From Granulosicoccus sp. (GTDB lineage: Bacteria; Pseudomonadota; Gammaproteobacteria; Granulosicoccales; Granulosicoccaceae), in contig JALZVU010000244.1 of the NCBI GenBank assembly GCA_023301795.1, forward strand, positions 1-42,114: DNA of 42,114 bases, given 5' to 3'. Every line of letters starts with the position of its first letter. The first letter of the stretch is position 1. Shown in pieces: positions 1 through 24,939 of the stretch. The notes below the pieces were generated by a model, which worked only from the letters and a program-made list of their open reading frames with translations, had not been told where the DNA came from and ran no database searches. The position numbers and the translations under genes are program-made.

Positions 1-651
1 GTGACTATCCAGCTGGCACTTGCAACACTGCCGGTGGGGCTTCTCATCGGCTTTGCTTTCGCCTATGCCTCACTATCCAAGTACTTCGCACTGCGTGCTG
101 TGGGCGTCGGCTACACCACTATTTTGCGTGGACTACCCGAAATCCTGACCCTGTTTGTCGTCTATAACGGTGCCGGGCTTGCCATGAATTCACTGCTTAA
201 ATGGTGGAATCCAGAAGCTGACTCTGTAAATTTCAGCCCGTTTACCGCTGGAGTTATTGCCCTTGCCATGGTGTTCGGAGCCTATGCCGCAGAAGTCATT
301 CGTGGCGCTTTCAACGCTCTGGATAATGGCCAATCAGAAGCGGGCAAAGCCATTGGTATGTCACCCTTGCTGATCTTCTGGCGAATCCAACTACCGCAGC
401 TGTGGCGCTTCGCACTACCGGGCCTGGGCAATCTATGGATCAACATGCTCAAAGACACCGCCCTTGTGTCTGTTATCGCACTGAATGATCTTATGCGTAT
501 GACCAAAGTGGCTGTTGGCGTCACCAAACAACCCTTTACGTTCTATCTTGTCGCCTGCTTCATTTACTGGATTTTGAGCGTGTTATCTGAAGTAGTGCTG
601 GACAGAATGGAGAAGCGCGCTAATCGTGGCGTTCGTAGGGCGGCACCATGA
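1..651 (+). CDS. Polar amino-acid ABC transporter permease (HisQ/GlnP type), 5' end outside the window
   Basis: Inner-membrane permease of a His/Gln/Arg-type ABC importer. The first visible codon is GTG, but the protein begins directly with the L-T-I-Q-L-A-L-type helix that in this family follows a leader of about 15-25 residues, so the true start probably lies before base 1. Seen: several hydrophobic helices, an R-G-L-P-E-I motif near residue 43, and the cytoplasmic EAA loop (EAGKAIGMSPLLIFWRIQLP, about residues 113-132) that contacts the ATPase. The family usually has about 220-250 residues, so little is missing. The stop overlaps the start of the next permease (ATGA at 648-651), indicating translational coupling. 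The binding-protein gene is not in view and is probably upstream. The substrate cannot be read from the sequence. Confidence 0.9.
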   Translation: MTIQLALATLPVGLLIGFAFAYASLSKYFALRAVGVGYTTILRGLPEILTLFVVYNGAGLAMNSLLKWWNPEADSVNFSPFTAGVIALAMVFGAYAAEVIRGAFNALDNGQSEAGKAIGMSPLLIFWRIQLPQLWRFALPGLGNLWINMLKDTALVSVIALNDLMRMTKVAVGVTKQPFTFYLVACFIYWILSVLSEVVLDRMEKRANRGVRRAAP

Positions 652-1397
652 ACGCGCTTGAGCTGATAACAGAGTACTGGCCGCGTTTTCTTGACGGAAC
701 ATTGATGACGCTCAAGCTCACCGGCATGGGCGTGCTTATAGCAGCTGTGGTATCACCGTTTTTTGCGCTACTGCGAACCGATGCGCCGATCTATGTGCGC
801 ATACCGCTTCGAATCTATATCTCCTTCATGCGCGGTACGCCTATTCTTGCGCAGTTGTTTCTTATCTATTACGGGTCAGGACAGTTTCGGCCTGTGCTCC
901 AAGAATGGGGATTGTGGGGGTTCTTTCGCGACCCGTTTAACTGCGCACTTCTGGCCTTTGCACTGAACTCCACCGCCTATCAAACGGAAATCATACGCGG
1001 TGCCATTGCAGGTGTACCGCAGCGTGAAATTGAAGCTGCAAAGGCGTTTGGCATGAGTCGTTTCAAAACACTTCAGCGTGTGGTGTTTCCACATACCTAT
1101 CGCATTGCCTGGCCAGCGTTGGGCAATGAGGTTATTTTGCTAATGAAGGCTAGTGCGTTAGCCAGCGTGGTAACAGTATTTGACATCATGGGCAGAACGC
1201 GGCAAGTGTTTTCCAAGACCTTTGATTTTTCAGCCTATCTATGGGCAGCGATTATCTATCTGTGCATTACGGCTTTGTTTGTCGGTGTATGGCGGCTGGC
1301 TGAAAAGCGTCTGGGACGTCATCTTGAGATGCACAGCGGTAAAGTGGACACGCCAAAGATCACCAAAACAGCTGCCCCAATGCGAGGGATACGTTGA
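648..1397 (+). CDS. Polar amino-acid ABC transporter permease (HisM type)
   Basis: Second permease of the same importer, 249 residues, normal length for HisM/GlnP. It carries the family motif [10 protein letters not shown] (about residues 62-71) and an EAA loop ([20 protein letters not shown], about residues 128-147), with about five hydrophobic helices. It starts in an ATGA overlap with the preceding permease, and its TGA overlaps the ATG of the ATPase gene, so the three genes form a tightly coupled operon. HisQ and HisM types normally form a heterodimer bound to a homodimeric ATPase. The C-terminal 25 residues after the last helix are basic and look cytoplasmic. Confidence 0.92.
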
Positions 1398-2209
1398 TGA
1401 ATACAGAGTCTCCTGTCAAATCCCCTGCACCGGCGGCCACCTCCACATCAGCTACTGCTTCCATACCCGTACTGGATGCTCGGAATATTAAAAAGCGCTT
1501 TGGTGATACTGACGTTCTGAAAGGCGTTTCTCTGCAAGCTCACCCGGGGGACGTCATCAGCATACTGGGGGCGTCGGGTTCTGGAAAATCCACGTTTCTG
1601 CGTTGCTTGAATTTTCTGGAGACACCTACGACAGGTTCGATAAGTGTGCTTGGGGATGAAATTACGGTGCGTGACGGAAAGCTGAGCAACAAGGATCAGC
1701 TGCAAACAATCCGTCGTAGGCTGGGCATGGTTTTTCAACAATTCAATTTGTGGACGCACCGTACGGTATTAGAGAACGTTACCGAGGGGCCCATCCACGT
1801 GCTGGGATTAAAGCGTGATGACGCCTGTGCGCGAGCAATAAGCCTGTTAGAGCGCGTTGGCCTATCCCATTGCAGCGATCAATACCCGTCCATGCTCTCG
1901 GGTGGCCAACAGCAGCGTGTCGCTATTGCTCGTGCTTTGGCTATGGAACCCGATGCCATCCTGTTTGACGAGCCAACGTCTGCGCTTGACCCTGAGCTTG
2001 TGAAAGACGTGCTTGAAGTTATTCGCTCATTGGCCAGCGACGGAATGACCATGATTGTCGTCACCCACGAAATGAGCTTTGCTAAGGACGTATCGTCCCA
2101 CGTTGTGTTCCTTCACCAGGGCGTTATCGCCGAGCAAGGAACCCCTGAGCAGATGTTCGGCGCGCCTGCAACGGATGTGTTCAGGCAATTTATTGGCGAA
2201 TCGTTGTAG
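1397..2209 (+). CDS. Polar amino-acid ABC transporter ATP-binding protein (HisP/GlnQ type)
   Basis: ATPase that powers the importer encoded just upstream. Seen: Walker [11 protein letters not shown]-loop VFQQFNLW, signature LSGGQQQR, Walker [15 protein letters not shown] and switch histidine in VVTHE, in the order expected for the PAAT family, which also shows the typical insertion after Walker A ([11 protein letters not shown]). A TTG at 1394 is in frame, but ATG at 1397 overlaps the permease stop as TGATG and is the better start, giving 270 residues. The first 25 residues are Ser/Ala/Pro/Thr-rich and precede the usual start of the fold; their role is unknown. The gene ends 11 bp from the convergent PaaZ-type gene. 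Confidence 0.94.
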
Positions 2210-8995: not shown

Positions 8996-9034
8996 AGTTA
9001 AGGTACCTCACGGCACCCATCAGGATTGAACACA

Positions 9035-10252
9035 GTGGATCAGCAAAGCACACGCCCCGATTTCTTTTCCCGTCATGACGGTGAAAAAATCCTCCCCTTC
9101 TCTACTGCCGAATATGAACGTCGGCTGGCAACCCTTAGGCGTATCATGGCCGAGCGTGACATACCGGCAACGGTACTCACCTCGATGCATAACATCGCCT
9201 ACTACTCAGGGTTTCTCTATTGCAGTTTTGGTCGTCCCTACGCGTGCGTGGTCACTGCTGAAGCCTGCACGGTGGTGTCAGCGAATATTGATGCCAGCCA
9301 GCCTTGGCGCAGATCAATCGGCGACAGTGTTATTTATACCGACTGGCGACGCGACAATTATTACCGTGCGCTTGCCACATTAACAGCTGGAGCCAAGCGC
9401 ATTGGCATCGAAGCCGATCATCTCACCCTCGCGGCTAAATCAACCATTGAACAGATGCTGGCCAATCCCGAGTTAGTCGACGTTGCGCCTGCCACCATGA
9501 GTGCACGCATGATCAAATCAGCAGAAGAGATCGCGCTTATTCGTGAGGGTGCACGCATTGCCGATCATGGTGGCGAGGCTATTCGCCAAGCGATCAAGCT
9601 AGGTACAAGAGAGATCGATGTCGCTATGGCTGGACGAGATGCCATGGAACTTGAAATCGCTCGTGCTCACCCCGACAGCGAACTAAGAGACAGCTGGGTC
9701 TGGTTTCAATCCGGCTTGAACACTGATGGCGCCCATAATCCGGTCACCACACGGGCGCTTGAGTCTGGCGATATCCTGAGCATGAACACCTTTCCCATGA
9801 TTTCCGGTTATTACACAGCACTTGAACGCACATTGTTTCTAGGTGAGCCCGATAGCGCAAGCATGGCACTTTGGAAAGCAAATGTTGAACTCCATGAGCT
9901 CGGTCTGTCACTGATTAAACCCGGCATTTCCTGCTCGGCCATCTGTGAAGAGCTAAACCGCTTCCTCATCGAACGTGACTTGTTGCAATATCGCTCATTT
10001 GGCTACGGGCATTCATTTGGTGTGCTCAGTCATTACTACGGACGTGAGGCAGGGCTTGAGCTACGCGAAGATATCGATACGGTGCTGGAGCATGGCATGG
10101 TGGTGTCTATGGAACCCATGCTCTGGATTCCGCAAGGCACACCCGGTGCTGGTGGCTATCGAGAACATGACATTCTGCTGGTGGGTGAGACCGGTGCCGA
10201 GAACATCACAGGCTTTGCATATGGGCCCGAACACAACATCATCGAAGCCTAA
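9035..10252 (+). CDS. Creatinase (creatine amidinohydrolase)
   Basis: Cytosolic homodimeric enzyme that hydrolyses creatine to sarcosine and urea (EC 3.5.3.3), of the metal-free creatinase branch of the M24 pita-bread fold. The sequence closely follows Pseudomonas putida creatinase along its whole length: N-terminal FLYCSFGRPYA, PWRR, Y-T-D-W-R-R-D-N-Y, R-M-I-K-S-A-E-E, the catalytic histidine in N-T-D-G-A-H-N-P (about His234, P. putida His232), YYTALERTLFL, FGYGHSFG, SHYYGREAGLELREDID and PGAGGYREHDIL. A TTG at 9026 is in frame but abuts the AGGA at 9022-9025; GTG at 9035 has that AGGA at a normal 9-nt distance and gives 405 residues, the family length. No creatininase, sarcosine oxidase or urease gene is nearby. 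Ends 16 bp from the convergent cyclase gene. Confidence 0.95.
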   Translation: MDQQSTRPDFFSRHDGEKILPFSTAEYERRLATLRRIMAERDIPATVLTSMHNIAYYSGFLYCSFGRPYACVVTAEACTVVSANIDASQPWRRSIGDSVIYTDWRRDNYYRALATLTAGAKRIGIEADHLTLAAKSTIEQMLANPELVDVAPATMSARMIKSAEEIALIREGARIADHGGEAIRQAIKLGTREIDVAMAGRDAMELEIARAHPDSELRDSWVWFQSGLNTDGAHNPVTTRALESGDILSMNTFPMISGYYTALERTLFLGEPDSASMALWKANVELHELGLSLIKPGISCSAICEELNRFLIERDLLQYRSFGYGHSFGVLSHYYGREAGLELREDIDTVLEHGMVVSMEPMLWIPQGTPGAGGYREHDILLVGETGAENITGFAYGPEHNIIEA

Positions 10253-10268: not shown

Positions 10269-11657
10269 CTATCCGGAATAGGTCCAGATAGCCACGCCTG
10301 ACTCCCTGCCGCGAATCTGTTGAATACCACCCTTGTTCAGGTTGGCGAACAATGCATGGTCGCTGATAGCATCCCTGGCAGGGATAGCGCCAATCAGGCG
10401 ATCACTGACCACCAGAGACGTTGGCAAGTCTCGGGTGAGTTGTTCTAGGCGGTTGGCTATATTGACGGTATCCCCTATGACGCTGTATTCGAGTCTGCGC
10501 TCATTACCGATATCACCGGCGATCACCATGCCGTAGTGCAGCCCGATGCCGATGCGTATTGGCTGGGCACCGACGGCAGCGCGCTCAGCATTCCAGATTT
10601 TAAGCGCCTCGATCATGTCCAACGCACATTGCAAGGCGTTGCGCGCATCATCGGCCTTGGGCACTGGTGTACCAAAGGTAGCCATAAGCCCATCGCCCAT
10701 ATACTTATCCAGGGTGCCATGGTTATCAAATACAGCTTCACCCAGGCGATCATGATAATCACGGAGTAACATGATCACCTCCTCTGGCGAAGATTGTTCA
10801 CACATCTTTGTGAATCCCACAATATCAACGAACAACACAGCCACTTCCTGTTCACGCACACTGCCCAACAATTGTTGCTGGTCAGCGATGTGATCGGCCA
10901 CATTAGGCGAAAAGTAACGTGCAAGACTGGCACGAGTACGCTCTGCTACAGCCCGGCTTTCGACGAGTCGTCTGGAACGGTTGACGACAACCGCCAGGCC
11001 CGCAGCCAGAATCAACGTGACGACAATCTCGGTTTTCCAGAACTCCAGAAATATAAAATTGGTATCCGGGAAGGCTGCCAGATAGGCATCCACGGTTTGT
11101 TCGGGAAGATCATTGTTGGTGTAAACATCTGGCAAGCTTAGAAACCACATCAACATGGCCGTACGCGCCGAGATAATACACAGCCCGGCCCACAACACCA
11201 GCTGCGGCCGCAGGCTGAACGCTGCCTGCATGAGAAAGACATAGAAATAACTGGCCCGTGAGCCTTCCATCGCCAATGCCGGTGGCAGTGCAGATACTTC
11301 AAACGGGTTTTGCGAGCTCAGCACAATGGCTAACCAGGCACAGTCGATAAGCACGAACACATATTTAAGAGCGGGTATACCAATACGGTACCTGGCACAG
11401 ATAAATTGCATCACCCCTAGCAACGCAAAGGAGGCAATCTCCAGCAAAGTAAACACATAGGCCAGGCCATCGTTACCAGAATAGTCGAACACCTGCCAGC
11501 TAAAAATAAACAGCAGTGCGATGGTACGCACTTTAGCAGCCAGCATCAGTCCCTGCCGTTCACCTTCTGCAAACGCGTAACCGGTTCTGCTTTCAAGCCG
11601 TTCAGTGAGTTGTTGCTGACCAAAGAGTGATAGCGCTTGTGATTTCAATTCACTCAC
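10269..11657 (-). CDS. Membrane-bound class III adenylate/guanylate cyclase
   Basis: Cyclic-nucleotide synthase of 462 residues. Seen: about six hydrophobic helices (roughly residues 42-225) without a recognised sensor domain, a linker of about 25 residues reading RASLARYFSPNVADHI, which is conserved in this family, and a C-terminal catalytic domain (about 270-455). Metal-binding aspartates are present in F-V-D278-I-V-G-F-T and Y-M-G-D322-G. Lys318 (D-K-Y-M-G-D) and Asp396 (V-I-G-D-T-V-N) are the purine-specificity residues of adenylate cyclases, and Asn400/Arg403 complete the site, so cAMP is the likely product. The start is a GTG at 11657. It is probably monocistronic. The neighbouring pseudogene belongs to a different cyclase-associated family. 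Confidence 0.9.
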   Translation of the reverse strand: MSELKSQALSLFGQQQLTERLESRTGYAFAEGERQGLMLAAKVRTIALLFIFSWQVFDYSGNDGLAYVFTLLEIASFALLGVMQFICARYRIGIPALKYVFVLIDCAWLAIVLSSQNPFEVSALPPALAMEGSRASYFYVFLMQAAFSLRPQLVLWAGLCIISARTAMLMWFLSLPDVYTNNDLPEQTVDAYLAAFPDTNFIFLEFWKTEIVVTLILAAGLAVVVNRSRRLVESRAVAERTRASLARYFSPNVADHIADQQQLLGSVREQEVAVLFVDIVGFTKMCEQSSPEEVIMLLRDYHDRLGEAVFDNHGTLDKYMGDGLMATFGTPVPKADDARNALQCALDMIEALKIWNAERAAVGAQPIRIGIGLHYGMVIAGDIGNERRLEYSVIGDTVNIANRLEQLTRDLPTSLVVSDRLIGAIPARDAISDHALFANLNKGGIQQIRGRESGVAIWTYSG

Positions 11658-11900
11658 CGCGCTTGAGACATGGGGGCTTGATGGGTAGGTACCAGGTATG
11701 TGCAGGCGCTAGCATAACAGCGTGATGCTGATTGCGTCGTGTCTACAGGGCACAGGGTAGTATCCGTAAACAACGCTCAGCGATTAACTCAAACCTGCAC
11801 ATGCGTGGCAATACGTAGCGCAGCTAGAACATAGCTAACGCAATGTCTGGACCACGCAACGAACCTAAGGGCGATTCAATGCCGGCAGCTAACACATTGC
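11658..11900. other. Spacer between the cyclase gene and the degraded region
   Basis: Holds the upstream region of the leftward cyclase gene. A small inverted repeat, AGCAT with ATGCT, lies near 11711-11729. I see no open frame with protein character, no tRNA and no clear sigma-70 promoter. The right end runs into the duplicated tail of the pseudogene. Confidence 0.4.
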
Positions 11901-11984
11901 TTGTAAGCTGCCAGACTTACACTTAAGCTCGCAAATCACTCGGTTGTAAGCTGTCAGAGCTACACTTAAGCTCGCAATTCACTC
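11901..11984. repeat. Two-copy 41-bp tandem repeat (43-bp period) covering the 3' end of the pseudogene
   Basis: Copy 1 (11901-11941) and copy 2 (11944-11984) differ at only 4 of 41 positions and are separated by 2 bp. Copy 2 contains the stop codon and last six codons of the ATPase/TPR remnant (11966 onward, minus strand), so copy 1 is a duplicated gene tail. Each copy contains an imperfect hairpin (GTAAG/CTTAC in copy 1, GTA-AGCT/AGCTAC in copy 2). Confidence 0.85.
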
Positions 11985-13362
11985 AACAGTCCCAGTGCGA
12001 GCGCCTGCTCGTCTGGACAATCTCCATCCTCGATACTGCCATACACCGGCTCCATCAGAGCAATGGCCTCGTCGATCTTATCTTGTTCTTGCCACAATCT
12101 TGCAAGGTCGCCGGCTGCACGCAGCTCCCACAATACAGCCCCTTGCTGGCGTGCTATCTCGATAGCTTTGAATGCAAGGCTAATGCATCCCCATCGCCAG
12201 TAACCAGGGAATACAAATCCCCGACCATATGGGCATAGCACTTGGAAATAATGCTGTCACAGGCATTCCCGTAGAAAAGACACTTCTCCAGGCTCTTTGC
12301 AAGATCCAGCGCACGCTGGAAGGCAGCTTTAGTGGCATCTGCAGCCCAACCGGTGCTGGACATATACACTACGCTGAGCTGTATCTGCAGGTTCAGCGAT
12401 GAGGCAATGGCTTGTGCATCGTTATGATCACGCCGGGTTTTAAGTAAGTCAATGGTACGTCCAAGATGCGCTATCGCCTCATCGCATGCAGGTTGTGCGA
12501 TGGCGGCCTTACTCGCCGTGTACCATAGCGCTATGGCACGGTCGGTAAGGTTTGCAGCTTCAGCATGAACAGCCAACACCTCTGGTGCCATGCTTGCATC
12601 TGTTTCCAATGCCGCTAAGATTCTAGCATGGACCACCCTGCGCCTCTCCTTTAGCAAGCTTTCATACGCTGCATCGCGCACCAGTGCATGCTTGAACAAA
12701 TAGGTGGCGTCGGGCGGCAAACCACGTCGGTAGATAAGCTCGGCTTCAATCAGTCCGTTCAGTGCCAAATCCAGTTTGCCCTTGGGCAATGAGGTTACTT
12801 TGGCCAGTAAGCCATGGGCGAACTCCCGACCAATGCAAGCAGCTGTTTGTGCCACCTCTTTGATGGGCTGCAGCCGATCCAGCCGTGCCATCAGACTGTC
12901 GTGTAACGTGGTGGGAATAGCGATGGCGCTAAGTGGGCCATTGAGAACGTAACGATCACCTGACTCTTTAAGTACGCCAGATTCTAGAATGGTTTTTGTC
13001 AGCTCTTCTATAAACAACGGCACACCATCTGTGCGTCGCCCAATGATTTCCACGATTTCATCAGGTAGCGCCTTGCCACCGGTTAGCTTCGCCGATATAG
13101 CTGCAATCTGCTCCTCGCCCAACCGGTTTAATGTAAAGCGGGTGACTATGGGGTGCCCACCGAATCTGTAGTCAAATGTGGGGCGTGCTGTGGCGAGCAT
13201 CATGATTCTGTGATCAGCGATTTCATCGAGTAGAGTCTCTAGTAACTCCAACGACGTCGGATCAATCCAGTGCAGATCTTCATAAATCAATAACACGGGT
13301 TTAGAGACAAACAAGCTGTTCGCGTGATAACAATTCAGCCGCGATTAGCCTTTCGTCTAAGA
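11966..13362 (-). pseudogene. Remnant of an AAA-ATPase/TPR signalling protein (adenylate-cyclase-associated family)
   Basis: Two overlapping frames are pieces of one gene. Frame 1 (13314 to about 12175) starts at a Walker B-like region, P-V-L-L-I-Y-E-D-L-H-W-I-D-P, and continues through the winged-helix part (FKHALVRDAAYESLL) into TPR helices. Frame 2 (about 12190-11966) supplies the usual C-terminal helices (AFKAIEIARQQGAVLWELRA, then L-A-R-L-W and P-V-Y-G). In relatives these parts are separated by a much longer TPR region, so there is an internal deletion plus a frameshift. A third frame before 13314 reads L-I-A-A-E-L-L-S-R-E-Q, the sequence expected just upstream, so a second frameshift lies near 13315. 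The N-terminal cyclase domain and the Walker A loop are absent altogether. The product cannot be functional. Confidence 0.8.
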
Positions 13363-15219: not shown

Positions 15220-16431
15220 CTACAAACTCCCTACCTCGTCCCGCCGAAGCTGCAGCCATTGCCTATGAGTAGCGCAGCGCCATAACCATTCCAGGGGGCC
15301 TTGTGTATATTGATCGAGCCAACGTTTAGACCACCACAGTTGTATTATCCAAACGCTGAGAACAAACATCACCACCGTTATTCGTGAAACATCTTCGGTA
15401 TCCAGAACGTAGTTGAACATGATCAATCCAAATGCAGTCTGTGTCAGGTAGTTGGTCAGGGCCATGCGGCCGATGGCGTTGATTCTGTCATGCCAGTTTT
15501 GGTGAACGTGCTGCGCTAGTAATGTGATGATGGCAATGTAACCCAAGGCGGCGGGCAGCGTGCCAAGGGTATTTGGAATCCCTGCAACCAACGCTAGTTC
15601 AGTGGAGAATCCGTCAATTGTCAACCACGCTACGCCACTAGCTGCCAATATCCAACCAGTCGCTGTTCCAACCACAGCCACAGCGACATAAAGGCGCTTT
15701 GAACACGCGCCTGTTAAAAAACCACTTCGATACAAGTGGATACCAATTAGCATCATTCCCAGTGCGCGCACCATGGCATCTCCAATAATCCAAAGACCAA
15801 CACTATCTGAAACAGGGATAGCAGAATCCACCCAGTACTCGCCCCAGACGACAGCAGCCGCCAAAGGCTGTGAGTCTGCGTATTGCTGAACCAACCAGGC
15901 ACTGAGTGGAGACAACGATAGGATGCTAAGGCCTGATAACAGCAAGGCCGCCGAACTCAGGTTTCTGAGTGCCAATATTACAGGCGCAATAACGGCATAT
16001 ATAAGCAGCACATCACCCTCCCAAAATGCGGAGTGAATGATCCCCATAAACAACAAGAGCGTGTTGCGCCACCAACTTATGCGGATGGCTTTGGTGTGCC
16101 CAAGACGCGCGGATAATCGCTCGCAAAACAATACAATACCGGCACCAAAAAGGATCGAGAATAGCGCCATGAATTTCTGATCAGCAACGACCTCTCCCAC
16201 TATGGCGATGCTACGCGCAACTGTCGAAGGCGCAGTGTCAAAGCTGATATTAAAATAGCTTGTGAAACCTAGCCCGAACGAGACTGCATTCATAGTCAGA
16301 ATTCCCATCACGGCGGCACCGCGCAAGGTGTCTACGTTATGAATTCTTGGTGAGGACGATTGTTTGGTGCTCACAGGCGATGTGCTTCGGTTTGCGCTCG
16401 TGGCATTGAATAATATACAAGTTACTCCCAT
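15220..16431 (-). CDS. DUF418-family integral membrane protein (YeiB-like)
   Basis: Polytopic inner-membrane protein of unknown function. Seen: the family opening R-I-H-N-V-D-T-L-R-G-A-A-V-M-G-I-L, about 9-10 hydrophobic helices and the C-terminal DUF418 signature with N-A-I-G-R-M-A-L-T-N-Y-L-x-Q-T. The open frame extends to 16635, but that would overlap the divergent TetR gene. The ATG at 16431 (403 residues, with a GAG 11 bases upstream) or the ATG at 16449 are the realistic starts. Relatives have been linked only loosely to transport. The start lies about 50 bp from the start of the TetR gene, so a shared operator and regulation by that repressor are likely. Confidence 0.85.
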   Translation of the reverse strand: MGVTCILFNATSANRSTSPVSTKQSSSPRIHNVDTLRGAAVMGILTMNAVSFGLGFTSYFNISFDTAPSTVARSIAIVGEVVADQKFMALFSILFGAGIVLFCERLSARLGHTKAIRISWWRNTLLLFMGIIHSAFWEGDVLLIYAVIAPVILALRNLSSAALLLSGLSILSLSPLSAWLVQQYADSQPLAAAVVWGEYWVDSAIPVSDSVGLWIIGDAMVRALGMMLIGIHLYRSGFLTGACSKRLYVAVAVVGTATGWILAASGVAWLTIDGFSTELALVAGIPNTLGTLPAALGYIAIITLLAQHVHQNWHDRINAIGRMALTNYLTQTAFGLIMFNYVLDTEDVSRITVVMFVLSVWIIQLWWSKRWLDQYTQGPLEWLWRCATHRQWLQLRRDEVGSL

Positions 16432-16485
16432 TACACTAGTCACTCGCATATTGCGATTCAATACTGCTTCACTTAGACTATACCA

Positions 16486-17064
16486 ATGGGACTTAGAGAA
16501 CGAAATCGCGTGTCTGCGATGCGCGCCACGCAACGTCTGGCACTGCAACGCTTTGTCAGCGAGGGATTTGCCGCGGTAACAGTAGAATCGATTGCCACGG
16601 ATAGCGGTATGGCAGCGTCTACGGTGTTTCGTCACTTTGGTAGTAAAGAAAACCTGGTGCTATGGGATGAGCACGATGCAGAAATTGACAATGATTTGTC
16701 CAGCCGTTTGGGCCGGCAGCCACCTCTGTTGGCACTGCGTGATGCGTTTAAGGAAACATTGGCACAGCGCTATACAGACGATCTTGATTTTCAACTGCAG
16801 CGTGTCCAATACATCTATGCCACCAAAGAACTGCACGGCGCAGCTGTTGAAGCCGACTATCAGGCACGCGCTGAGCTCACCAGTGCACTTAACTCAACGC
16901 TATCAAAACCGCACAAAAACAATGCCGCACTGGTTGCAGGTGCGGCACTTCTTGCCCTGGAAATTGCCATTGATCGTTGGCAAGCCAGTGATGCTGGCTT
17001 ACCACTGACACAGTGCATTGATGAGGAATTTAGTAATTTATTACGGCTAGAAGATGTTGTCTAG
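16486..17064 (+). CDS. TetR/AcrR-family transcriptional regulator
   Basis: DNA-binding regulator of 192 residues. Seen: N-terminal helix-turn-helix about residues 12-58, with V-T-V-E-S-I-A-T-D-S-G and the recognition helix ending S-T-V-F-R-H-F-G-S-K-E-N-L-V, followed by an all-helical ligand domain that I cannot classify further. It diverges from the DUF418 gene with a gap of about 54 bp and precedes the racemase-family gene by 67 bp in the same direction. It could control both sides; the ligand is unknown. Confidence 0.92.
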   Translation: MGLRERNRVSAMRATQRLALQRFVSEGFAAVTVESIATDSGMAASTVFRHFGSKENLVLWDEHDAEIDNDLSSRLGRQPPLLALRDAFKETLAQRYTDDLDFQLQRVQYIYATKELHGAAVEADYQARAELTSALNSTLSKPHKNNAALVAGAALLALEIAIDRWQASDAGLPLTQCIDEEFSNLLRLEDVV

Positions 17065-17131
17065 TTGCTTACCGATCCCGCTATTCATCATTTCCAAAAC
17101 TCCATGACCCTTCAAACACCGGCCAATACAT

Positions 17132-18262
17132 ATGAGTATTAACGCTTCAGGCATTCTCGTCGAAGCAGCTGAGCTGCGCATAGTAGAACTCCCGCTACTA
17201 ACGCCGTTTGTTATATCTACCTGCACCATGACGGCAAAAACTTTTCCGCTTCTGAGCCTCAAAGGCGAAGATCTAGAGGGTATTGCCGAAGGTGTCATGG
17301 ATCCTGCACCCGACTATCTTGAAGAGACCATTGTCGGTGCGACAACATTTTTAAAACAGCAGCTATTGCCGTCTATTTTAGGGAAAACATTTAGCTCACC
17401 GTATGAGCTACAAGACTATCTCACACCTTGGCGCGGCAACCACATGGCTAAGGCCATGCTGGAAATGGCATTCTGGGATTTATGGTCAAAATCTCTGAAC
17501 ATCCCGTTAAAATCTGCCTTGGGTGGTGTGCGTGAAAAAGTGGATGTCGGTGTTAGCCTGGGTATTGCACCTATTGATAAAACACTTGCACGCGTAGAGT
17601 CTGCTCTGGATGAGGGCTACAAGCGAATCAAACTGAAAATTGCACGTGGGCATGATGTGGAAATTGTCAACGCTGTGCGGCAAGCCTATCCACACATCCA
17701 CCTTACTGTCGACGCCAACACCGATTACTCGCTGTCCGATATTGCCGTGCTCAGATCATTGGATGAATTCCAGCTGGACTATATCGAACAACCACTAGGC
17801 TTTGATGATTACCATGATCACGCCCACCTTCAATCACTTCTGAACACACCCATCTGCCTTGATGAAAGCATTCGCAGTGCAAATGACACAAGGAAGGCTC
17901 TACAGATACGCGCTGCACGTGTTATCAATATCAAGGTAGGACGTGTTGGTGGCTATGCATCTGCCCGAGCTATTCATGATGTCAGTGCTGCGTTTGATGT
18001 GCCTGTGTGGTGTGGTGGAATGCTCGAAAGTGGTATTGGGCGCGCTCACAACATACACTTGGCAACGCTTAGCAATTTTAGTAAACCCGGTGACACCTCC
18101 AGTGCCAGCCGCTATTTTACGCGCGATATTATTAACGAACCGTTAGAGGCAATCGATGGCTGCATGTCCGTACCCTTACATGGACCGGGCATTGGAGTCA
18201 CGTTGGATACAGAGTATCTGGACACCGTATCGAGCAATGTAGAACATATTTCACCAACATGA
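17132..18262 (+). CDS. Enolase-superfamily N-acylamino-acid racemase / o-succinylbenzoate synthase-like enzyme
   Basis: Metal-dependent enzyme of the NAAAR/NSAR-OSBS (MenC type 2) family, 376 residues. All active-site residues are visible: Lys167-x-Lys169 (IKLKIARGHD), metal ligands Asp194 (TVDANTDYS), Glu219 (YIEQPL) and Asp244 (CLDES), and the opposite-face base Lys268 (NIKVGRVGG). The loop VWCGGMLESGIGRAHN and the ending PGDTSSASRYF are diagnostic of this subfamily. The gene overlaps the following GNAT by ATGA. That pairing is known for N-succinylamino acid racemases, and no other men gene is present, so racemase activity is more likely than menaquinone synthesis. Sequence alone does not separate the two activities. 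Confidence 0.88.
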   Translation: MSINASGILVEAAELRIVELPLLTPFVISTCTMTAKTFPLLSLKGEDLEGIAEGVMDPAPDYLEETIVGATTFLKQQLLPSILGKTFSSPYELQDYLTPWRGNHMAKAMLEMAFWDLWSKSLNIPLKSALGGVREKVDVGVSLGIAPIDKTLARVESALDEGYKRIKLKIARGHDVEIVNAVRQAYPHIHLTVDANTDYSLSDIAVLRSLDEFQLDYIEQPLGFDDYHDHAHLQSLLNTPICLDESIRSANDTRKALQIRAARVINIKVGRVGGYASARAIHDVSAAFDVPVWCGGMLESGIGRAHNIHLATLSNFSKPGDTSSASRYFTRDIINEPLEAIDGCMSVPLHGPGIGVTLDTEYLDTVSSNVEHISPT

Positions 18263-18984
18263 CTCTTGAATCTTGTCCACCCACCATTCGCACACTTCAA
18301 TCCGTAGAAGAGTACAAGGCATCAGAACAACTGCAGCGCGATGTATGGGGTGATGATGATCCAGCTGACAATGCTGACATTCTGCAAGCGATAGCTCACG
18401 AAGGTGGTTTAGTCGCTGGCGCTTTCGATGGGCAGCGCATGATCGGTTTTCTCTTTGCGTTCCCTACTCGCAATCCTGACATTCAGCATTCACATCGTTT
18501 AGCGGTTCACCCACAAGCACAAGGCACCGGTTTGGGTACAAGACTAAAATGGTTTCAACGCCAGTGGTGTATTGATCAAGGGATAAGAACGGTACGGTGG
18601 ACGTTTGATCCAGTACGTGCGGCTAATGCCAATTTGAATATTGCAAAGCTTGGTGCTACTGCTCGTGTCTATCACGAGAATTACTACGGGGACATGGCAG
18701 GTATAAACGCCGGTGTGCCATCAGATCGTATTGTTGCGCAGTGGGATTTAGAGTCTGTGCGGGTTGTTGAACGTACGCACAGTGCTGGTGGATGTCAACG
18801 GGTGTTTTCTGAACGGTATGTCTCCATTCCTGCCAACTTTCAAGCACTGCTGAATAAGGATCACGGCAAGGCATTGGCTGAGCGTATGAGAGTGCGCACC
18901 GAACTCTGCGAAGCATTCTCTAACGGGTATCAGATTACTGGTTTCGATCCAGACGGCGCGCGGTATTTACTCAGCGGGCAGTAG
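18259..18984 (+). CDS. GNAT acyltransferase of the COG3375 type, partner of the racemase-family enzyme
   Basis: Predicted N-acyltransferase of 241 residues. Seen: acyl-CoA loop in H-R-L-A-V-H-P-Q-A-Q-G-T-G-L-G-T (about 74-89), then T-V-R-W-T-F-D-P-V-R-A-A-N-A-N-L-N and K-L-G-A-T-A-R-V-Y, then N-Y-Y-G-D-M, which are hallmarks of the COG3375 group. Its ATG overlaps the TGA of the upstream racemase-family gene, so the two are translated together. In Geobacillus a GNAT next to an N-succinylamino acid racemase succinylates D-amino acids; by analogy this one may acylate amino acids. The third enzyme of that pathway, an M20-type desuccinylase, is not in the window. Confidence 0.82.
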   Translation: MTLESCPPTIRTLQSVEEYKASEQLQRDVWGDDDPADNADILQAIAHEGGLVAGAFDGQRMIGFLFAFPTRNPDIQHSHRLAVHPQAQGTGLGTRLKWFQRQWCIDQGIRTVRWTFDPVRAANANLNIAKLGATARVYHENYYGDMAGINAGVPSDRIVAQWDLESVRVVERTHSAGGCQRVFSERYVSIPANFQALLNKDHGKALAERMRVRTELCEAFSNGYQITGFDPDGARYLLSGQ

Positions 18985-19023: not shown

Positions 19024-19986
19024 TCAAACTAATCTATCGCGCGGCTGCTCACCCGCAAAGAACGCATCCAGATTGTCCAAAGCCCTGAACCCCATCGCGT
19101 CACGCGTATCTCTGGTCGCGCTGCCGATATGCGGCAGCATGAAAATATTCTCATGTTCGGCGAAGGCAGGGTTCGCTCCGGGTTCTGTGACAAAACAATC
19201 TAACCCGGCGGCCGCAAGATGACCTGAGCGAATTGACTCTACCAGTGCATCTTCATCAACCAAGGCTCCACGAGCCGTGTTGACCAATATCGCCCCTTTG
19301 GGAAGTTTTGCCAGTGACGAAGCATTTAACAATCCACGAGTATCCGGTGTTGCTGGACAATGTAAAGACAGAAAATCTGAGACTTCCAACAAAGCGTCAA
19401 GCGATTCGTGCCAGATGGCACCCTGCTCCAGCTCGGGCGATAATCGACTTCGATTGTGATAGTGAACGCTCATATCAAAGCCACGCGCCCGACGTGCCAT
19501 CACCTGCCCCACTTTCCCCATACCGATGATTCCGATTCGCTTACCGCTTACCTGCTGTCCCACCATGAACGATGGACTCCAGCTGGTCCAACGACCACTA
19601 CGAACAAGTCTGTCTCCTTCAGCAGCCCGTCGAGCGGCACCCAACAACAGCAACATGGCTATCTCGGCAGTGGCATCGGACAACACATCAGGCGTGTTGG
19701 TCACCACAATACCGCGTTTGCCTAATGCCTCAAGATTGCAGTGATCAACGCCCACGCTGTGATTTGCAATGATCTTTACTCGAGCCGACAACGCTGCCGA
19801 CACAGACTCATCAAACAACTCGGAGTGGCACGGCAATATGGCATCCACTTGGGCGCTCATCTCGATAATGGTTTGCGCGGAGTGCGGATGATCATCAGGG
19901 TTAAGGATGCATTCGTAAGTGTCGAGCGCGCGCTTCTCAGTATTTGCAGACAGTTTGCGAGGGATCCAGAGGACAGGTTTACTCAT
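19024..19986 (-). CDS. D-isomer-specific 2-hydroxyacid dehydrogenase
   Basis: NAD(P)-dependent enzyme interconverting a 2-oxoacid and a D-2-hydroxyacid, 320 residues. Seen: Rossmann motif G-I-I-G-M-G-K-V-G (about 152-160) and the catalytic triad Arg239 (N-T-A-R-G-A-L-V-D), Glu268 (D-C-F-V-T-E-P) and His286 (L-P-H-I-G-S-A-T). HNRSRLSP after beta-2 suggests NADP preference, as in glyoxylate/hydroxypyruvate reductases. It is the last gene of the leftward TRAP operon, about 50 bp after the small membrane protein, so it probably reduces or oxidises the compound imported by that transporter or released by the amidase. No ribosome site is obvious before the ATG. Confidence 0.92.
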   Translation of the reverse strand: MSKPVLWIPRKLSANTEKRALDTYECILNPDDHPHSAQTIIEMSAQVDAILPCHSELFDESVSAALSARVKIIANHSVGVDHCNLEALGKRGIVVTNTPDVLSDATAEIAMLLLLGAARRAAEGDRLVRSGRWTSWSPSFMVGQQVSGKRIGIIGMGKVGQVMARRARGFDMSVHYHNRSRLSPELEQGAIWHESLDALLEVSDFLSLHCPATPDTRGLLNASSLAKLPKGAILVNTARGALVDEDALVESIRSGHLAAAGLDCFVTEPGANPAFAEHENIFMLPHIGSATRDTRDAMGFRALDNLDAFFAGEQPRDRLV

Positions 19987-20282: not shown

Positions 20283-21629
20283 TCATAAAGAAGCAACATG
20301 CCCTTCTAACCAGCGTGCTGTTCTCAACAGTCGAGCATCATCGCCACGTCGTCCCACGAGCTGCACACCCATCGGCATACCCTCCTCTGTACTAAACAGT
20401 GGCAAGGTAATAGCTGGCGATCCACACAGTGTCCATAAACCATTGAAAACCGGATCACCGGTTGTCTCAACCCCGGGAGCAGCGCCTGTGGTAGCTGGGG
20501 TCAGCAGCACGTCGCACCGCTCGAAAATCTCATCAAGCCCAGCGTTGAATACAGCAGGCCAATCTAATGCTGACAAGTAATCACGAGCAAGAACCTTGTC
20601 ACCTGCATCCATGAATGCCCGTATTTCATCAGACAGTTTCTCATCACCGGAGCGACGATAGGCGTGATAGTTCTTAGCCATTTCAGCCTGATTGATGCGT
20701 GCACGAATGTTAACCGAGTCAGCAAACGCTGGGGGAAGCGGCGCCTCGAAGCATTGCTCGCCCAGCATCTCTGCCAACTCTTGCAATGCTAACTGCATAG
20801 GCTCATCAGCCATCGCCCAGAAGGGCGTCTTCACAAAAGCGAAGGTTGGCGTCACCGGAGGCTGGGCTATCGCGGTGTCCAATAATCTGGCATGCGGCCT
20901 AATGGACGTTGCAGGATCATCCGCATGATGGCCAAACAACACATCCGTGACCATGGCCACATCTGCCACAGTGCGTCCAAAAACACCCACCGTGTCGAGG
21001 CTTCCCGATTGAGGCAAAACACCCGCGCGCGGAATACAACCAAACGTAGGTTTAAAGCCCGTCACACCACAGTAGGCCGCAGGGCGTATTACTGAACCAC
21101 CGGTTTGCGTACCAACAGCCACCGGTACCATGCCGCAGGCTACAGCCGCGGCTGAGCCCGAAGACGAGCCTCCCGGGGAGCGATTCAGGTTGTGTGGGTT
21201 ACGGGTTTTTGAAGGTGCCATAAAGGCAAGTTCGGTAGATACCGTCTTACCCAGAATAATGGCCCCTGCCTGCTTGAGTCGTTCCACAACAAACGCATCA
21301 CTAGCTGGCACACGCCCCTCATCCAGCACAGTACCATTCTGTGTTGGTATGCCCGCTGTATCGATAATATCCTTAATGCCTATCGGCACCCCATGAAGTA
21401 CGCCGATCTGATGCCCGGCACGACGCTCCCGATCACGCATCTCAGCTTGCTTCAACGCATGATCGGAATCAAGCCACGCCCATGCCTGTACCTCAGGTTC
21501 ACGAGCTGCGATCTGCGTCAAGCACATACCGGCAACCTGCACAGCGTCCATAGAACCTGCCGCCAGACTGTCGCGTATGTCTATGGCAGAAGCGGGTGCA
21601 GATGCGGTAACTGAATCTGCACTATCCAT
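20283..21629 (-). CDS. Amidase-signature family amidohydrolase
   Basis: Ser-cisSer-Lys amidase of 448 residues. Seen: catalytic lysine in V-P-I-G-I-K-D-I-I-D-T (about Lys86), the signature P-G-G-S-S-S-G-S-A-A-A-V-A carrying the cis-serine, and the nucleophile in T-Q-T-G-G-S-V (about Ser179). An in-frame start exists at 21689, but ATG 21629 fits the family and overlaps the DctM stop (ATGGATAG), implying translational coupling. It is not a convincing GatA: no gatB or gatC is near, and it belongs to the TRAP operon. It probably releases ammonia or an amine from the imported compound or a derivative; the substrate is unknown. Confidence 0.9.
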   Translation of the reverse strand: MDSADSVTASAPASAIDIRDSLAAGSMDAVQVAGMCLTQIAAREPEVQAWAWLDSDHALKQAEMRDRERRAGHQIGVLHGVPIGIKDIIDTAGIPTQNGTVLDEGRVPASDAFVVERLKQAGAIILGKTVSTELAFMAPSKTRNPHNLNRSPGGSSSGSAAAVACGMVPVAVGTQTGGSVIRPAAYCGVTGFKPTFGCIPRAGVLPQSGSLDTVGVFGRTVADVAMVTDVLFGHHADDPATSIRPHARLLDTAIAQPPVTPTFAFVKTPFWAMADEPMQLALQELAEMLGEQCFEAPLPPAFADSVNIRARINQAEMAKNYHAYRRSGDEKLSDEIRAFMDAGDKVLARDYLSALDWPAVFNAGLDEIFERCDVLLTPATTGAAPGVETTGDPVFNGLWTLCGSPAITLPLFSTEEGMPMGVQLVGRRGDDARLLRTARWLEGHVASL

Positions 21630-23037
21630 AGAATTTTTCAGGCAGGTAGAACACAATATTAGGGAAGTTATACAGCAGGACCATGGCAACTATAACCAGA
21701 AACAGGAACGGCAAAACCCCTTTGAAAATCATCGTCAATTGCACTTCAGGGGGGGCTATCCCCTTTAGATAATAGGCCGACATGGCCATCGGCGGGGTTA
21801 AGAAGGAGGTCTGCAGATTCAGCGCCACAAGAATGCCGAAGAACAAAGGATCAATATTGAACAACGGTAGCAGTGGTAGAAAGATCGGTACAAAGATAAT
21901 GATAATTTCAGACCACTCAAGCGGCCAGCCCAGCAAGAAAATAATAAGCTGCGCCATAAGTAGGAATTGCAATGGCGTCAGATCAAGGCCACCCACAAAA
22001 TCTGCAATCACATGCTCACCGCCCAGATAGGAAAATACCGATGAGAACGTGTAGGAGCCGACAAACAGCCAGCACACCATTGCCGCCGTTCGCACGGTGA
22101 GATACACCGATTCACGCAAACGCTGAAAAGTCATAGCGCGGTAGATGACTGCCAACAACATGCCACCCAACGCACCGATAGCCGCAGCCTCAGTCGGGGT
22201 CGCCAGGCCAAAAAGAATCGAACCCAAAACTGACATGATCAGAATGGCGAGTGGCAAGAAAGACGTTAACAACATCCATGCAAGTTTGCCTGCCGGTACG
22301 TGTGGCACCTCCTCAAGTGTGGGCTTGGGCGCAGCGGATGGCTGCATCAAAGCCCGCCCTACGATATAGACAAGGTACAAGCCGACAAGCGTCAGGCCAG
22401 GCAGCAAAGCACCTGCATACAAGCGCACAATAGACACGCCTGACGATGCCGCGTAGACAATGAGCATTATAGAGGGCGGTATGAGAATACCCAATGTGCC
22501 ACCCGCACAGATAATGCCTGCAGCAAAACTTGGGTTGTAGCGCGCTTTGAGCATGGCAGGTAGTGCCAACAGACCCATCAATGTCACTACCGCTCCCACA
22601 ATACCCGTGGCTGTAGCGAACAACGCACACGTGATCAGCGCCGCCACCCCCATTGATCCGGGAACGTTACGGGCTGCAATGTTTAACGTGCTGAACAAGC
22701 GACTGACAATATTGGCGCGTTCAACCACATAGCCCATGAACAAAAACAGAGGGACTGCCGTGAGCACTTCATTCGACATGACGGTATAGGTCTGGTTGAC
22801 GAACAAGTCGAAAATCCTGTTGTTGAACAGCCCTCCTAGCCATGAAGAGGCTTGTTCTATGGATCCGACATCTTCTTCAAGACGGTTAAAGGCACGCCAC
22901 ATGCGGCGTGCGTCAAAATAGGCGTAGTAACCAAATCCCATACCCATGGCCATCAAGGTAAAGGCAATGGGGAATCCGAGAAATACAAAACAGATAAACA
23001 GCCCCAGCATCACAAGGGCAATTTGCGGGTCAGTCAT
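21622..23037 (-). CDS. TRAP transporter large permease (DctM family)
   Basis: Integral membrane subunit carrying out Na+-coupled transport, 471 residues with about 12-13 hydrophobic segments. Seen: conserved opening P-I-A-F-T-L-M, V-P-L-F-L-F-M-G, the G-I-L-I-P-P-S-I-M-L-I-V-Y-A motif (about 207-220), A-T-P-T-E-A-A-A-I-G-A-L-G-G (about 278-291) and, near the C-terminus, L-N-L-Q-T-S-F-L-T-P-P. It is slightly longer than the usual 425-440, owing to an insertion after the first helix (YYAYFDARRMWRAF and following). It follows the small permease by 74 bp and overlaps the amidase start by 8 bp. Confidence 0.93.
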   Translation of the reverse strand: MTDPQIALVMLGLFICFVFLGFPIAFTLMAMGMGFGYYAYFDARRMWRAFNRLEEDVGSIEQASSWLGGLFNNRIFDLFVNQTYTVMSNEVLTAVPLFLFMGYVVERANIVSRLFSTLNIAARNVPGSMGVAALITCALFATATGIVGAVVTLMGLLALPAMLKARYNPSFAAGIICAGGTLGILIPPSIMLIVYAASSGVSIVRLYAGALLPGLTLVGLYLVYIVGRALMQPSAAPKPTLEEVPHVPAGKLAWMLLTSFLPLAILIMSVLGSILFGLATPTEAAAIGALGGMLLAVIYRAMTFQRLRESVYLTVRTAAMVCWLFVGSYTFSSVFSYLGGEHVIADFVGGLDLTPLQFLLMAQLIIFLLGWPLEWSEIIIIFVPIFLPLLPLFNIDPLFFGILVALNLQTSFLTPPMAMSAYYLKGIAPPEVQLTMIFKGVLPFLFLVIVAMVLLYNFPNIVFYLPEKFYG

Positions 23038-23111
23038 TAGTCACGTTCATCATGTGGTCAGTCACAGCGTTAGACGGTTTTTTGAGCTGGTCAGAAACCG
23101 GAGGTTGATAT

Positions 23112-23690
23112 TCAGCGTGCATCTGCAGACTCACTAGCTTGCTTGATTAAGATTTCATCAGTTTCCTGAACATCAGCCTCAGCATGACGCCAGTAGCCCT
23201 CACGAATACACAGGATGCACCGGCAGACCTGTGCAATACCCTGTATGAAAAGCAGGATGCCAGCGGCAACCATGATCGACTTGAACTGGAATATAGGGAT
23301 ACCGGCAGGACTGTTGACACTGACTTCGGTGTAGCCCCATGAGCGTGAGGAGTACTTCCAGCCAGCCAGAATCAAAGCGATAACGCCTGGGAAGAAAAAC
23401 AGGATGTACAGCACAAGATCTACTTTGGCCTGAGTTTTGGGCCGCCACAATCGATAGAGAAAGTCACCACGCACATGACCATTCTTGGACAGGGTGTAAG
23501 CACCTGCCATCATGAACAAACTGCCGTACATGATAAATGAGACATCCAGCGACCACGGGGTCGGAGAATTGAATATATACCGGACAACGACTTCATAACT
23601 GACGCCAAACGTCATGAGTACAATCAGCCATGCGAACGCTTTGCCGAACCATGCGGACAGCTTGTCCGCAAATTGAATAAACCCTAGCAT
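23112..23690 (-). CDS. TRAP transporter small permease (DctQ family)
   Basis: Four-helix membrane subunit of the TRAP system, 192 residues. Seen: helices near residues 15-35, 50-68, 91-110 and 133-155, the D-x-S-F-I-M-Y-G segment after the first periplasmic loop and the K-N-G-H-V-R-G-D motif (about 69-76), which is strongly conserved in DctQ. The C-terminal tail of about 30 residues is charged and longer than usual. It lies 103 bp after dctP with possible stem-loops between, and 74 bp before dctM. Confidence 0.9.
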   Translation of the reverse strand: MLGFIQFADKLSAWFGKAFAWLIVLMTFGVSYEVVVRYIFNSPTPWSLDVSFIMYGSLFMMAGAYTLSKNGHVRGDFLYRLWRPKTQAKVDLVLYILFFFPGVIALILAGWKYSSRSWGYTEVSVNSPAGIPIFQFKSIMVAAGILLFIQGIAQVCRCILCIREGYWRHAEADVQETDEILIKQASESADAR

Positions 23691-23753
23691 TGAGTCATAA
23701 ACCGGTAGTTAACGTTTAAAGATTTTTCCAACAACGACATGAAGCAGGCAATC

Positions 23754-23789
23754 TGCGGTTAGTCCTTTAGCCGCAAATTAGCCGTCTGC
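23754..23789 (-). promoter_or_regulatory. Intercistronic stem-loops between dctP and dctQ
   Basis: TGCGG occurs at 23754-23758 and again at 23785-23789, flanking CCGCA at 23771-23775, so either copy could pair with the middle element in the transcript. Hairpins at this place often protect the abundant binding-protein message or lower permease expression. That role here is inference. Confidence 0.35.
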
Positions 23790-23793
23790 GGTA

Positions 23794-24939
23794 TTACAGC
23801 TTCAGTTTGCCAGGGAAGTAGTGATTGTAGGCAAGCTCATAGTCAGGTGCATTCATTAGCTCATAGTACGTTACTCGCTCAACCCAGGCACGCTGGCTGT
23901 CCAGTACCTTTTTCATGAACTCATCTTTCTCAAGCTCTTCAATCAGTCCGTCCCACGCCTGAATCTGGGCATCAAGGATGGGTTGTGATGTTCGGTGAAC
24001 CGTAACGCCACTTTCCTGAAGTTTTTGTAAATCCGCCGAGTACCGATTCATCGCCGACGCGGTGTTAGCCGTTGAAGCTGCCTCTACACCGTACTGCAAG
24101 ATAGCCTGCAGATCCGGCTCCAGGTCTTCAAAGAAATCACGATTGAACATGAACTCAAATGACTCTGATGCCTGATGGTACGACGACAGGTAGTAGTTCT
24201 TGGCAACATCCTGTGCACCAAAATCGCTATCCGATGACGGGTTATTGAATTCGAACGCATCGATAACACCACGCTCCATCGCTGGAACAATTTCGCCGCC
24301 CGGCAGTTGTGCAACCGACATTCCCATGTTCTGCATGAGATCTGCCGCCAGACCTACCGTTCGGTACTTCAGCCCTTTGATGTCATCAAGTGTGTTCACT
24401 TCATTCTTGAACCAGCCAAACGGCTGAGCAAACATTGGAAAGCCCATGAACGCGACAATGTTCATGTCCATGACGTCTTGCGTAAGTTCACGATAGAACT
24501 CTGCACCACCACCTTCATAGAACCAAGACATCATTGTTGTAGCAGATCCACCGAAAACAGGACCGGTACCAAACAGTGATGCAGCTTTGGACTTGCCGTA
24601 CCAGTAAACGGGCACCGAATGCGCTGCATCCAGAATGCCGTCGTTACACGCATCAATAACCTGAAACGCTCCTACTACGGCGCCTGCAGGCAGAAGGTCG
24701 ACCTTGAGTCGGCCACCCGACATGGCTTCAACGCGATTTGCGTAGTCCTGAGCAAAATCCTGCCAGATGTTCGATGCGCCCCAAGAGGTCTGCATCTTCA
24801 TAACCAGCGGTGCCTGTCCAATAACGGCCGGGGCTGCGAAAATACCCGCAGCTCCAACAGCACCAGCCGCCGCACCTTTCTTCAGAAAGGAACGGCGCGC
24901 TGGGGCTGATCCTGTAGTTGGTTTTTTGGTAGCTTCCAT
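23794..24939 (-). CDS. TRAP transporter periplasmic solute-binding protein (DctP family) with Tat signal
   Basis: Captures the substrate in the periplasm for the TRAP permease; 381 residues. Seen: a twin-arginine signal, A-R-R-S-F-L-K-K (Arg15-Arg16), then an Ala/Gly-rich hydrophobic core ending near residue 42, then the mature DctP fold. The segments P-V-Y-W-Y-G-K-S-K-A-A-S-L-F, L-K-Y-R-T-V-G-L and Y-Y-E-L-M-N-A-P mark a well-conserved subgroup, related to the TakP/2-oxoacid-binding branch, that is common in marine proteobacteria. The usual DctP ligand arginine lies in K-Y-R-T-V-G. A GGAGAG ribosome site is about 8 bases before the ATG. It is first in the operon dctP-dctQ-dctM-amidase-small protein-dehydrogenase. 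The substrate is probably a carboxylate, not otherwise known. Confidence 0.93.
   Translation of the reverse strand: MEATKKPTTGSAPARRSFLKKGAAAGAVGAAGIFAAPAVIGQAPLVMKMQTSWGASNIWQDFAQDYANRVEAMSGGRLKVDLLPAGAVVGAFQVIDACNDGILDAAHSVPVYWYGKSKAASLFGTGPVFGGSATTMMSWFYEGGGAEFYRELTQDVMDMNIVAFMGFPMFAQPFGWFKNEVNTLDDIKGLKYRTVGLAADLMQNMGMSVAQLPGGEIVPAMERGVIDAFEFNNPSSDSDFGAQDVAKNYYLSSYHQASESFEFMFNRDFFEDLEPDLQAILQYGVEAASTANTASAMNRYSADLQKLQESGVTVHRTSQPILDAQIQAWDGLIEELEKDEFMKKVLDSQRAWVERVTYYELMNAPDYELAYNHYFPGKLKL

Follow-up and report, generated by a model that had tools for sequence, protein, structure and literature searches.

A racemase-acyltransferase gene pair of Granulosicoccus sp. as the probable core of a D-amino-acid salvage route, with its closest relatives in Alphaproteobacteria

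Does an enolase-superfamily gene that carries the signature of o-succinylbenzoate synthase (OSBS, MenC) serve menaquinone synthesis, or does it racemize N-acylated amino acids, as do the N-succinylamino acid racemases (NSAR) of the same family? The question is raised by contig JALZVU010000244.1 of a Granulosicoccus sp. assembly (C244), the whole of which (42,114 bp) is the window analyzed here. Three open reading frames (ORFs) on its plus strand were found at the positions and in the orientation reported by an earlier sequence-only reading: a TetR-family regulator (16486..17064), the NSAR/OSBS-family enzyme (17132..18262), and a GNAT N-acyltransferase (18259..18984). N-acylamino-acid racemization is better supported than OSBS activity for the window enzyme by the evidence presented below, and we consider it fairly probable that this pair is the core of a Geobacillus-type route for the salvage of D-amino acids.

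The enolase-family protein matches MR_MLE_C (166.8 bits) and MR_MLE_N (38 bits) and scores 322.2 bits against the NSAR/OSBS model TIGR01928 (cut-off 200.65), which places it in that subfamily. The best solved match is the N-acylamino acid racemase 1r0m/1xpy, with 1r0m, which we take to come from D. radiodurans, aligning over residues 9-369 at 440.8 bits. The presence of every catalytic residue of the N-acylamino-acid-racemase group, as asserted earlier, was confirmed by alignment: K167-x-K169, D194, E219, D244, and K268 are all there, together with R271, and all are invariant in the eight members aligned (the window enzyme plus seven). We assume that K167, K169, and K268 are the catalytic lysines and that D194, E219, and D244 are the metal ligands. 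R271 aligns with R266 of the Amycolatopsis NSAR/OSBS enzymes (1sja, 4a6g, 7s8w), which share the catalytic residues and R266 with the window enzyme, structure entry 7s8w having Q at this place; a Streptomyces relative of the Amycolatopsis enzyme (L141) is 43% identical to the window enzyme. Although R266 is reported to favor racemization, R271 cannot separate racemases from bifunctional enzymes because it is invariant in all eight aligned members. In this enzyme class the lysine pair acts as bases in a two-lysine mechanism, according to PMC8142540. Together with the model match, the solved structure, and the tree described below, these residues lead us to predict an N-acyl(succinyl)amino acid racemase.

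Relatives were collected as the best 80 of 590 confirmed genome matches, a sample rather than a census, and comprised 22 alphaproteobacterial loci (59 to 76% identity) and 58 others. The idea of a single odd proteobacterial member was rejected on this count. On the earlier suggestion that a proteobacterial member would extend the pathway, a clade without detected menD is added, and such members are not rare. The men genes themselves were searched genome-wide for menD and menB. Neither exceeded its cut-off in the host assembly (97.01% complete, with a listed contamination of 2.95%), the best matches reaching 66.2 bits for menD (cut-off 244.2) and 118.1 bits for menB (cut-off 342.7), which agrees with the absence of men genes and the preference for racemization over OSBS activity in the sequence-only reading. 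The same menD search was applied to 26 of the 80 genome loci, i.e., 21 of the 22 alphaproteobacterial ones (L031, a second locus of the L026 strain, was omitted) plus five from Bacillota. menD was over the cut-off in 0/21 alphaproteobacterial carriers, some of which are drafts of 2.6 Mb that may be incomplete, versus four of the five Bacillota carriers; the other 22 genomes gave only weaker matches below the cut-off. The alphaproteobacterial clade hence appears to sit outside menaquinone synthesis by the menD route, while the Bacillota members may be bifunctional. Moreover, the racemase gene was found in none of 38 related genomes, 23 of them of the same genus (E ≤ 1e-30), nor, at E ≤ 1e-40, in any of 273 others from the class, a set that overlaps with the 38, and is therefore not a core quinone gene. 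The futalosine route has no OSBS step. Since no menD was detected over the cut-off in the host genome or in the 21 carriers, the name menC, under which 29 of the 30 plasmid records listed annotate relatives of the racemase, is probably wrong for the whole clade. Because members that perform both reactions blur the selected function of the NSAR/OSBS family, carriers without detected men genes offer a clean setting in which to test whether racemization is that function.

The second member of the pair matches PF00583 (Acetyltransf_1) at 36.2 bits (cut-off 20.7) and is predicted to acylate a D-amino acid. As noted earlier from the sequence, the stop codon of the racemase gene and the start codon of the GNAT gene share the letters ATGA. 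In 24 of 28 alphaproteobacterial loci (the 22 genome loci plus six from plasmids), or in 25 of 30 once two Deinococcus loci are added, the last letters of the racemase ORF are ATGA, GTGA, or TTGA, so that a start codon could lie within the stop, and the mechanically called GNAT ORF begins exactly at the racemase stop in 17 of the 25 GNAT-bearing alphaproteobacterial loci, indicating that the coupling is conserved and not due to chance. Adjacency was counted over 88 loci (L023-L110, L141-L143 not being included), some of them shortened by contig ends. The proposed link between racemase and GNAT is upheld by these counts: a GNAT lies downstream of the racemase in 25/28 alphaproteobacterial loci, one copy (L105) being broken, and near it in all four Deinococcus loci, adjacent in three. 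A homologous GNAT flanks the racemase in 34 of the 58 non-alphaproteobacterial genome loci, and in 32 of these it lies upstream. The window GNAT shares 26 invariant residues across 26 aligned sequences and is homologous to four Bacillota GNATs encoded beside NSAR (32 to 39% identity); against solved structures it gave no match at E ≤ 0.001 as a single sequence and only generic GNATs with a profile.

The neighborhoods of the relatives, which for the alphaproteobacterial genome loci were read from ten annotated proteins, contain importers, an amino acid permease, M81 and M20 peptidases, serine hydrolases, and a D-aminoacylase. The gene order is M81 - menC - GNAT in Brucella haematophila, menC - GNAT - amino acid permease in Paracoccus, serine hydrolase - M20 - GNAT - menC in Streptomyces, and menC - GNAT - ABC permeases and binding protein - serine hydrolases - D-aminoacylase in Deinococcus psychrotolerans. 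Three alphaproteobacterial loci (L085, L108, and L110) have an M20 gene, a gamma-glutamyltransferase gene, and a peptide importer beside the racemase, the order in Pseudochrobactrum being peptide ABC - gamma-glutamyltransferase - M20 - binding protein - menC. In Sulfitobacter sp. W027 (L105:4555-5290), the GNAT beside menC is in two pieces and the binding-protein gene is split, apparently a decaying plasmid copy of the operon. A further pairing of importer and enolase superfamily occurs on two rhizobial plasmids (L155 and L156), where the genes of a related importer precede one whose annotation is another mandelate racemase/muconate lactonizing family member; an aminotransferase gene lies upstream and an aldolase gene downstream.

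A first handle on which amino acid is involved comes from genes at the left end of the window that encode an amino-acid ABC importer and that the sequence-only reading had missed. They encode, on the plus strand, permease 1 (1..651, truncated by the contig edge; PF00528, 72.7 bits), permease 2 (648..1397; PF00528, 68.2 bits), and an ATPase (1394..2209; PF00005, 120.1 bits; 344.6 bits with the HisP model, under its cut-off of 466). The binding protein, 78% identical to that of locus L103, is encoded at the end of another contig, C60, where the first residues of permease 1 are also read, the remainder following from base 1 of the window, so that the two contigs very probably abut. In the six racemase loci nearest to the window, and also in L030, genes for a binding protein, two permeases, and an ATPase lie upstream of the racemase, directly so in the six, with only permease pieces and the ATPase visible in L023 and with the split binding-protein gene in L105. 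The permeases and ATPase of the window (1-2209) are 67 to 80% identical to the importer of L103; permease 1 shows 74.8% identity to a permease of a Sulfitobacter racemase operon, permease 2 shows 80.3% identity to a permease beside a Sulfitobacter racemase, and the ATPase shows 66.7 to 70.4% identity to those beside three Sulfitobacter racemases. The binding protein most resembles those for histidine and for lysine/arginine/ornithine, which makes a basic amino acid a reasonable first substrate to consider. Its residues R98, D181, and E32 are invariant in 11 aligned sequences, two of them outgroup proteins; we take R98 and D181 to occupy the places that in HisJ and LAO hold the carboxylate and the ammonium group, and E32 to occupy that of Asp11. 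These features give a weak hint that the ligand is a basic amino acid of either hand.

For the final, deacylating step, a genome-wide search for M20-type enzymes returned eight M20_dimer proteins, none of them on the window contig. Four were scanned: one is DapE (L001), one is dipeptidase-like (L003), and two, encoded on C23 (L007) and C78 (L006), match TIGR01891 at 340 and 272.5 bits (cut-off 153.75), the second being cut by a contig edge. These two are candidates for the deacylation step and no more, so that the desuccinylase search proposed earlier did yield M20-type candidates, though none linked to the pair. The earlier statement that the window lacks the hydrolase is correct for the M20 class but not for hydrolases at large, as the window contains an M24 peptidase gene (9026-10252) and an amidase-signature gene (20283-21689, minus strand; PF01425), the latter a second, non-M20 candidate for deacylation. 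The amidase gene overlaps a TRAP large-permease gene (21622-24939, minus strand; PF06808), and the two genes that follow had no NCBIfam match at 1e-20. In the relatives, 15 of the 58 non-alphaproteobacterial loci, all from Bacillota, contained an M20 gene whose product matched the C23 protein at 95 bits or more; in one of these no GNAT was found, and the gene order differs in some. The M20 protein of one Bacillota locus (L053), the only one of the 15 compared, passes TIGR01891 at 262 bits.

The salvage route as such is already known; what is added is the proteobacterial clade without detected menD. No description of proteobacterial menC-GNAT operons was found among the titles and abstract openings listed, most subscription papers lying outside that search. 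The GNAT/NSAR/L-desuccinylase route of Geobacillus kaustophilus, known here through reviews, resembles the window in having an NSAR/OSBS enzyme beside a GNAT. A GNAT making N-acetyl- and N-succinyl-D-Phe, -Tyr, and -Trp is credited to Sakai 2006 in PMC8762209, and the G. kaustophilus NSAR acts together with an L-succinylase according to PMC7431475. Many Bacillota loci likewise have a homologous GNAT next to NSAR, about 15 also with the M20 gene. The window differs from the Geobacillus route in that the racemase comes first, no M20 gene is linked, no menD or menB is over the cut-off, and a TetR gene lies upstream. The menC-GNAT operons of Deinococcus plasmids share their order with the window, with a short overlap in three of four loci and a racemase 57 to 60% identical to that of the window (two aligned), but have ABC permeases, a binding protein, and serine hydrolases downstream in three loci; in D. 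radiodurans MP1, binding-protein ORFs stand between menC and GNAT, and its menC is distinct from the crystallized 1r0m, the two sequences being different. The Sulfitobacter plasmid operon has the order RpiR - binding protein - permease - permease - ATPase - menC - GNAT and identities to the window of 71 to 75% for the racemase, 56 to 58% for intact GNATs, and 67 to 80% for the importer. It forms one operon behind an RpiR gene, whereas in the window the importer and the pair lie 15 kb apart and a TetR gene precedes the pair.

In a quick racemase tree (92 rows, SH-aLRT only), the window falls in a marked set of seven with six alphaproteobacterial loci (support 98), nested in sets of 15 and then 29 rows, all alphaproteobacterial except the window. 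In the GNAT tree, built from 40 of 65 GNAT rows with L105 left out because its copy is in two pieces, the window falls in a marked set of 14, the other 13 rows being alphaproteobacterial. The 14 alphaproteobacterial loci that group with the window racemase are those 13 plus L105. The window branches are long in both trees (0.34 for the racemase and 0.86 for GNAT). Alphaproteobacteria have the transfer-messenger RNA in two-piece form; that of the host is in one piece, with the tag ANDDNYAMAA, which speaks against an alphaproteobacterial host. A search of the genome for 16S rRNA gave no hit. Transfer of the pair from Alphaproteobacteria is hence the simplest reading of its nesting among them. 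The G+C content of the pair (0.492) is close to that of the window (0.516) and of 32 stretches on other contigs (mean 0.511), suggesting either that the transfer was not recent or that composition has little power on 2.5 kb.

The same nesting would arise if the contig were an alphaproteobacterial contaminant, in an assembly with nonzero listed contamination. Gene order around the SppA gene shows no synteny with genus mates beyond SppA itself (four stretches compared), and the tetranucleotide correlation with other contigs is just 0.54 for the 2.2-16.5 kb part, versus 0.84 for 19-42 kb; for the pair it is 0.61. However, eight alphaproteobacterial loci have a G+C content of 0.55 to 0.67, well away from the match between window and assembly, and those of the eight compared in tetranucleotides reach only r 0.07 to 0.34. 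SppA of the window is encoded in the poorly correlated 2.2-16.5 kb part. It shares 61 to 68% identity with its counterpart in 7 of the 23 genus mates and 42% or less with those of two genomes from outside the genus; in the other 16 genus mates nothing matched at E ≤ 1e-60. Where C60 ends and the window begins, the two fit together as one gene. Contamination is thus extremely unlikely.

How, then, would the pair work? The GNAT would acylate an imported D-amino acid, most likely with succinyl-CoA and possibly with acetyl-CoA; the enolase-family enzyme would racemize the N-acyl-D-amino acid by means of its two catalytic lysines; and an L-specific amidohydrolase encoded elsewhere, for which the TIGR01891 proteins of C23 and C78 are candidates, would free the L-amino acid and pull the route in one direction. 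While the racemization reading is likely, the complete route in this organism is a proposal: we infer the enzymatic steps, acyl donor, direction, hydrolase, and importer link in this strain from gene content and homology. The proposal draws on the agreement between the racemase and GNAT trees and on the importer or hydrolase neighbors in a number of relatives. Several observations weigh against it. The pair has no linked M20 gene, and among the 25 GNAT-bearing alphaproteobacterial loci only L042 has one, a weak match, although other hydrolase classes were looked for in few of these loci. L085, L108, and L110 have the racemase but no detected GNAT, and 24 of the 58 non-alphaproteobacterial genome loci lack a GNAT at 60 bits or more. 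In D. radiodurans MP1, menC and GNAT are not adjacent and are surrounded by potassium-transport and phosphofructokinase genes rather than a salvage operon. In the window itself, about 15 kb of other genes separate importer and pair; the importer also occurs in two genus mates that lack a racemase match (G012 and G019; permease 2 at 70 to 71%) and in Thioclava, where no racemase gene lies within some 7 kb of it. The importer tree, in which L023 is 40% filled and damaged permeases were entered as pieces, is undecided: the racemase-linked grouping has support 47/58, and the genus-mate grouping was not rejected (approximately unbiased test, p 0.276). Given these two genus mates and this tree, the linkage of importer and pair in this strain is only suggestive, and their joint transfer was rejected as a demonstrated fact. 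Finally, sequence alone cannot split NSAR from OSBS activity, as family members catalyze both, and the Amycolatopsis enzyme, first called a racemase, was later reassigned as an OSBS, as stated in PMC4215206.

That precedent, together with the fact that TIGR01928 is an OSBS equivalog model and with the menC name of the plasmid records, would favor the window enzyme being the OSBS of menaquinone synthesis, but the menD and menB results in the host, the menD survey of the carriers, and the absence of the gene from the related and class genomes make this very unlikely. The pair might alternatively serve detoxification or the exchange of N-acyl-amino acids, the GNAT capping D- or non-protein amino acids and the racemase merely equilibrating the products with no dedicated deacylation. 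The scarcity of linked M20 genes just described would fit, yet the transporters that accompany the pair in relatives are either importers with a binding protein or amino acid permeases, broad TIGR01891 amidohydrolases are present in the genome, and a racemase acting after capping makes little sense unless the L-form is used; we regard this explanation as unlikely. It is also conceivable that the racemase salvages external N-acylamino acids while the GNAT acts on another substrate, as Pseudochrobactrum-type loci, in which the racemase is accompanied by an M20 hydrolase but not by a GNAT, would suggest. The recurrence of the GNAT in both gene orders across alphaproteobacterial and other loci and the concordance of the two trees argue otherwise, and a division of this kind seems distinctly improbable. 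Returning to the D-amino-acid salvage route, a wider scenario can be offered only tentatively and is, in our judgment, rather doubtful: Proteobacteria would hold a dedicated branch of the enzyme family, in which importer, racemase, and GNAT form a module that has spread horizontally, has no part in menaquinone synthesis, takes up basic D-amino acids, and inverts them via N-acylation with a shared amidohydrolase for the final step; the host would have acquired it from Rhodobacterales-like donors and later split or rewired it under TetR.

The TetR-family regulator (PF00440 TetR_N, 39.9 bits; PF17754 TetR_C_14, 29.6 bits; both above cut-off) may control the pair, as its gene lies 67 bp upstream on the same strand. 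The control proposed by the sequence-only reading found no support in relatives: searches for homologues of the regulator came back empty in 38 other genomes (E ≤ 1e-15) and in the 88 related loci (E ≤ 1e-5), and the regulator was rejected as a conserved part of the module. Where relatives have a linked regulator, it is often of the RpiR type. A search for operators gave only a single imperfect inverted repeat (16 nt, 75%, gap of 34 nt), which lies over the TetR start and was taken as chance, and none before the racemase gene. In D. ficus, locus L142 contains a TetR-family gene of some kind on the strand opposite to menC, 2.3 kb away.

Between the importer and the racemase pair lie genes for PaaZ (TIGR02278, 1001.6 bits), an SDR, and a polyhydroxyalkanoate depolymerase (TIGR01849, 519.9 bits), all on the minus strand (2221-6441). 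Beyond the pair, a 2-hydroxyacid dehydrogenase gene (19024-19986) is convergent with the GNAT gene. On the other side, the mechanically called start of a DUF418 (YeiB-like) gene (15220-16635, minus strand) overlaps the TetR gene on the opposite strand; since its NCBIfam match starts at residue 97, the gene probably begins near 16449 and diverges from TetR. Two adjoining ORFs on the minus strand (10269-13314), one with an adenylate/guanylate cyclase domain (PF00211) and the other (12154-13314) judged by eye to resemble the ATPase portion of such a protein, are possibly a single gene broken in two.

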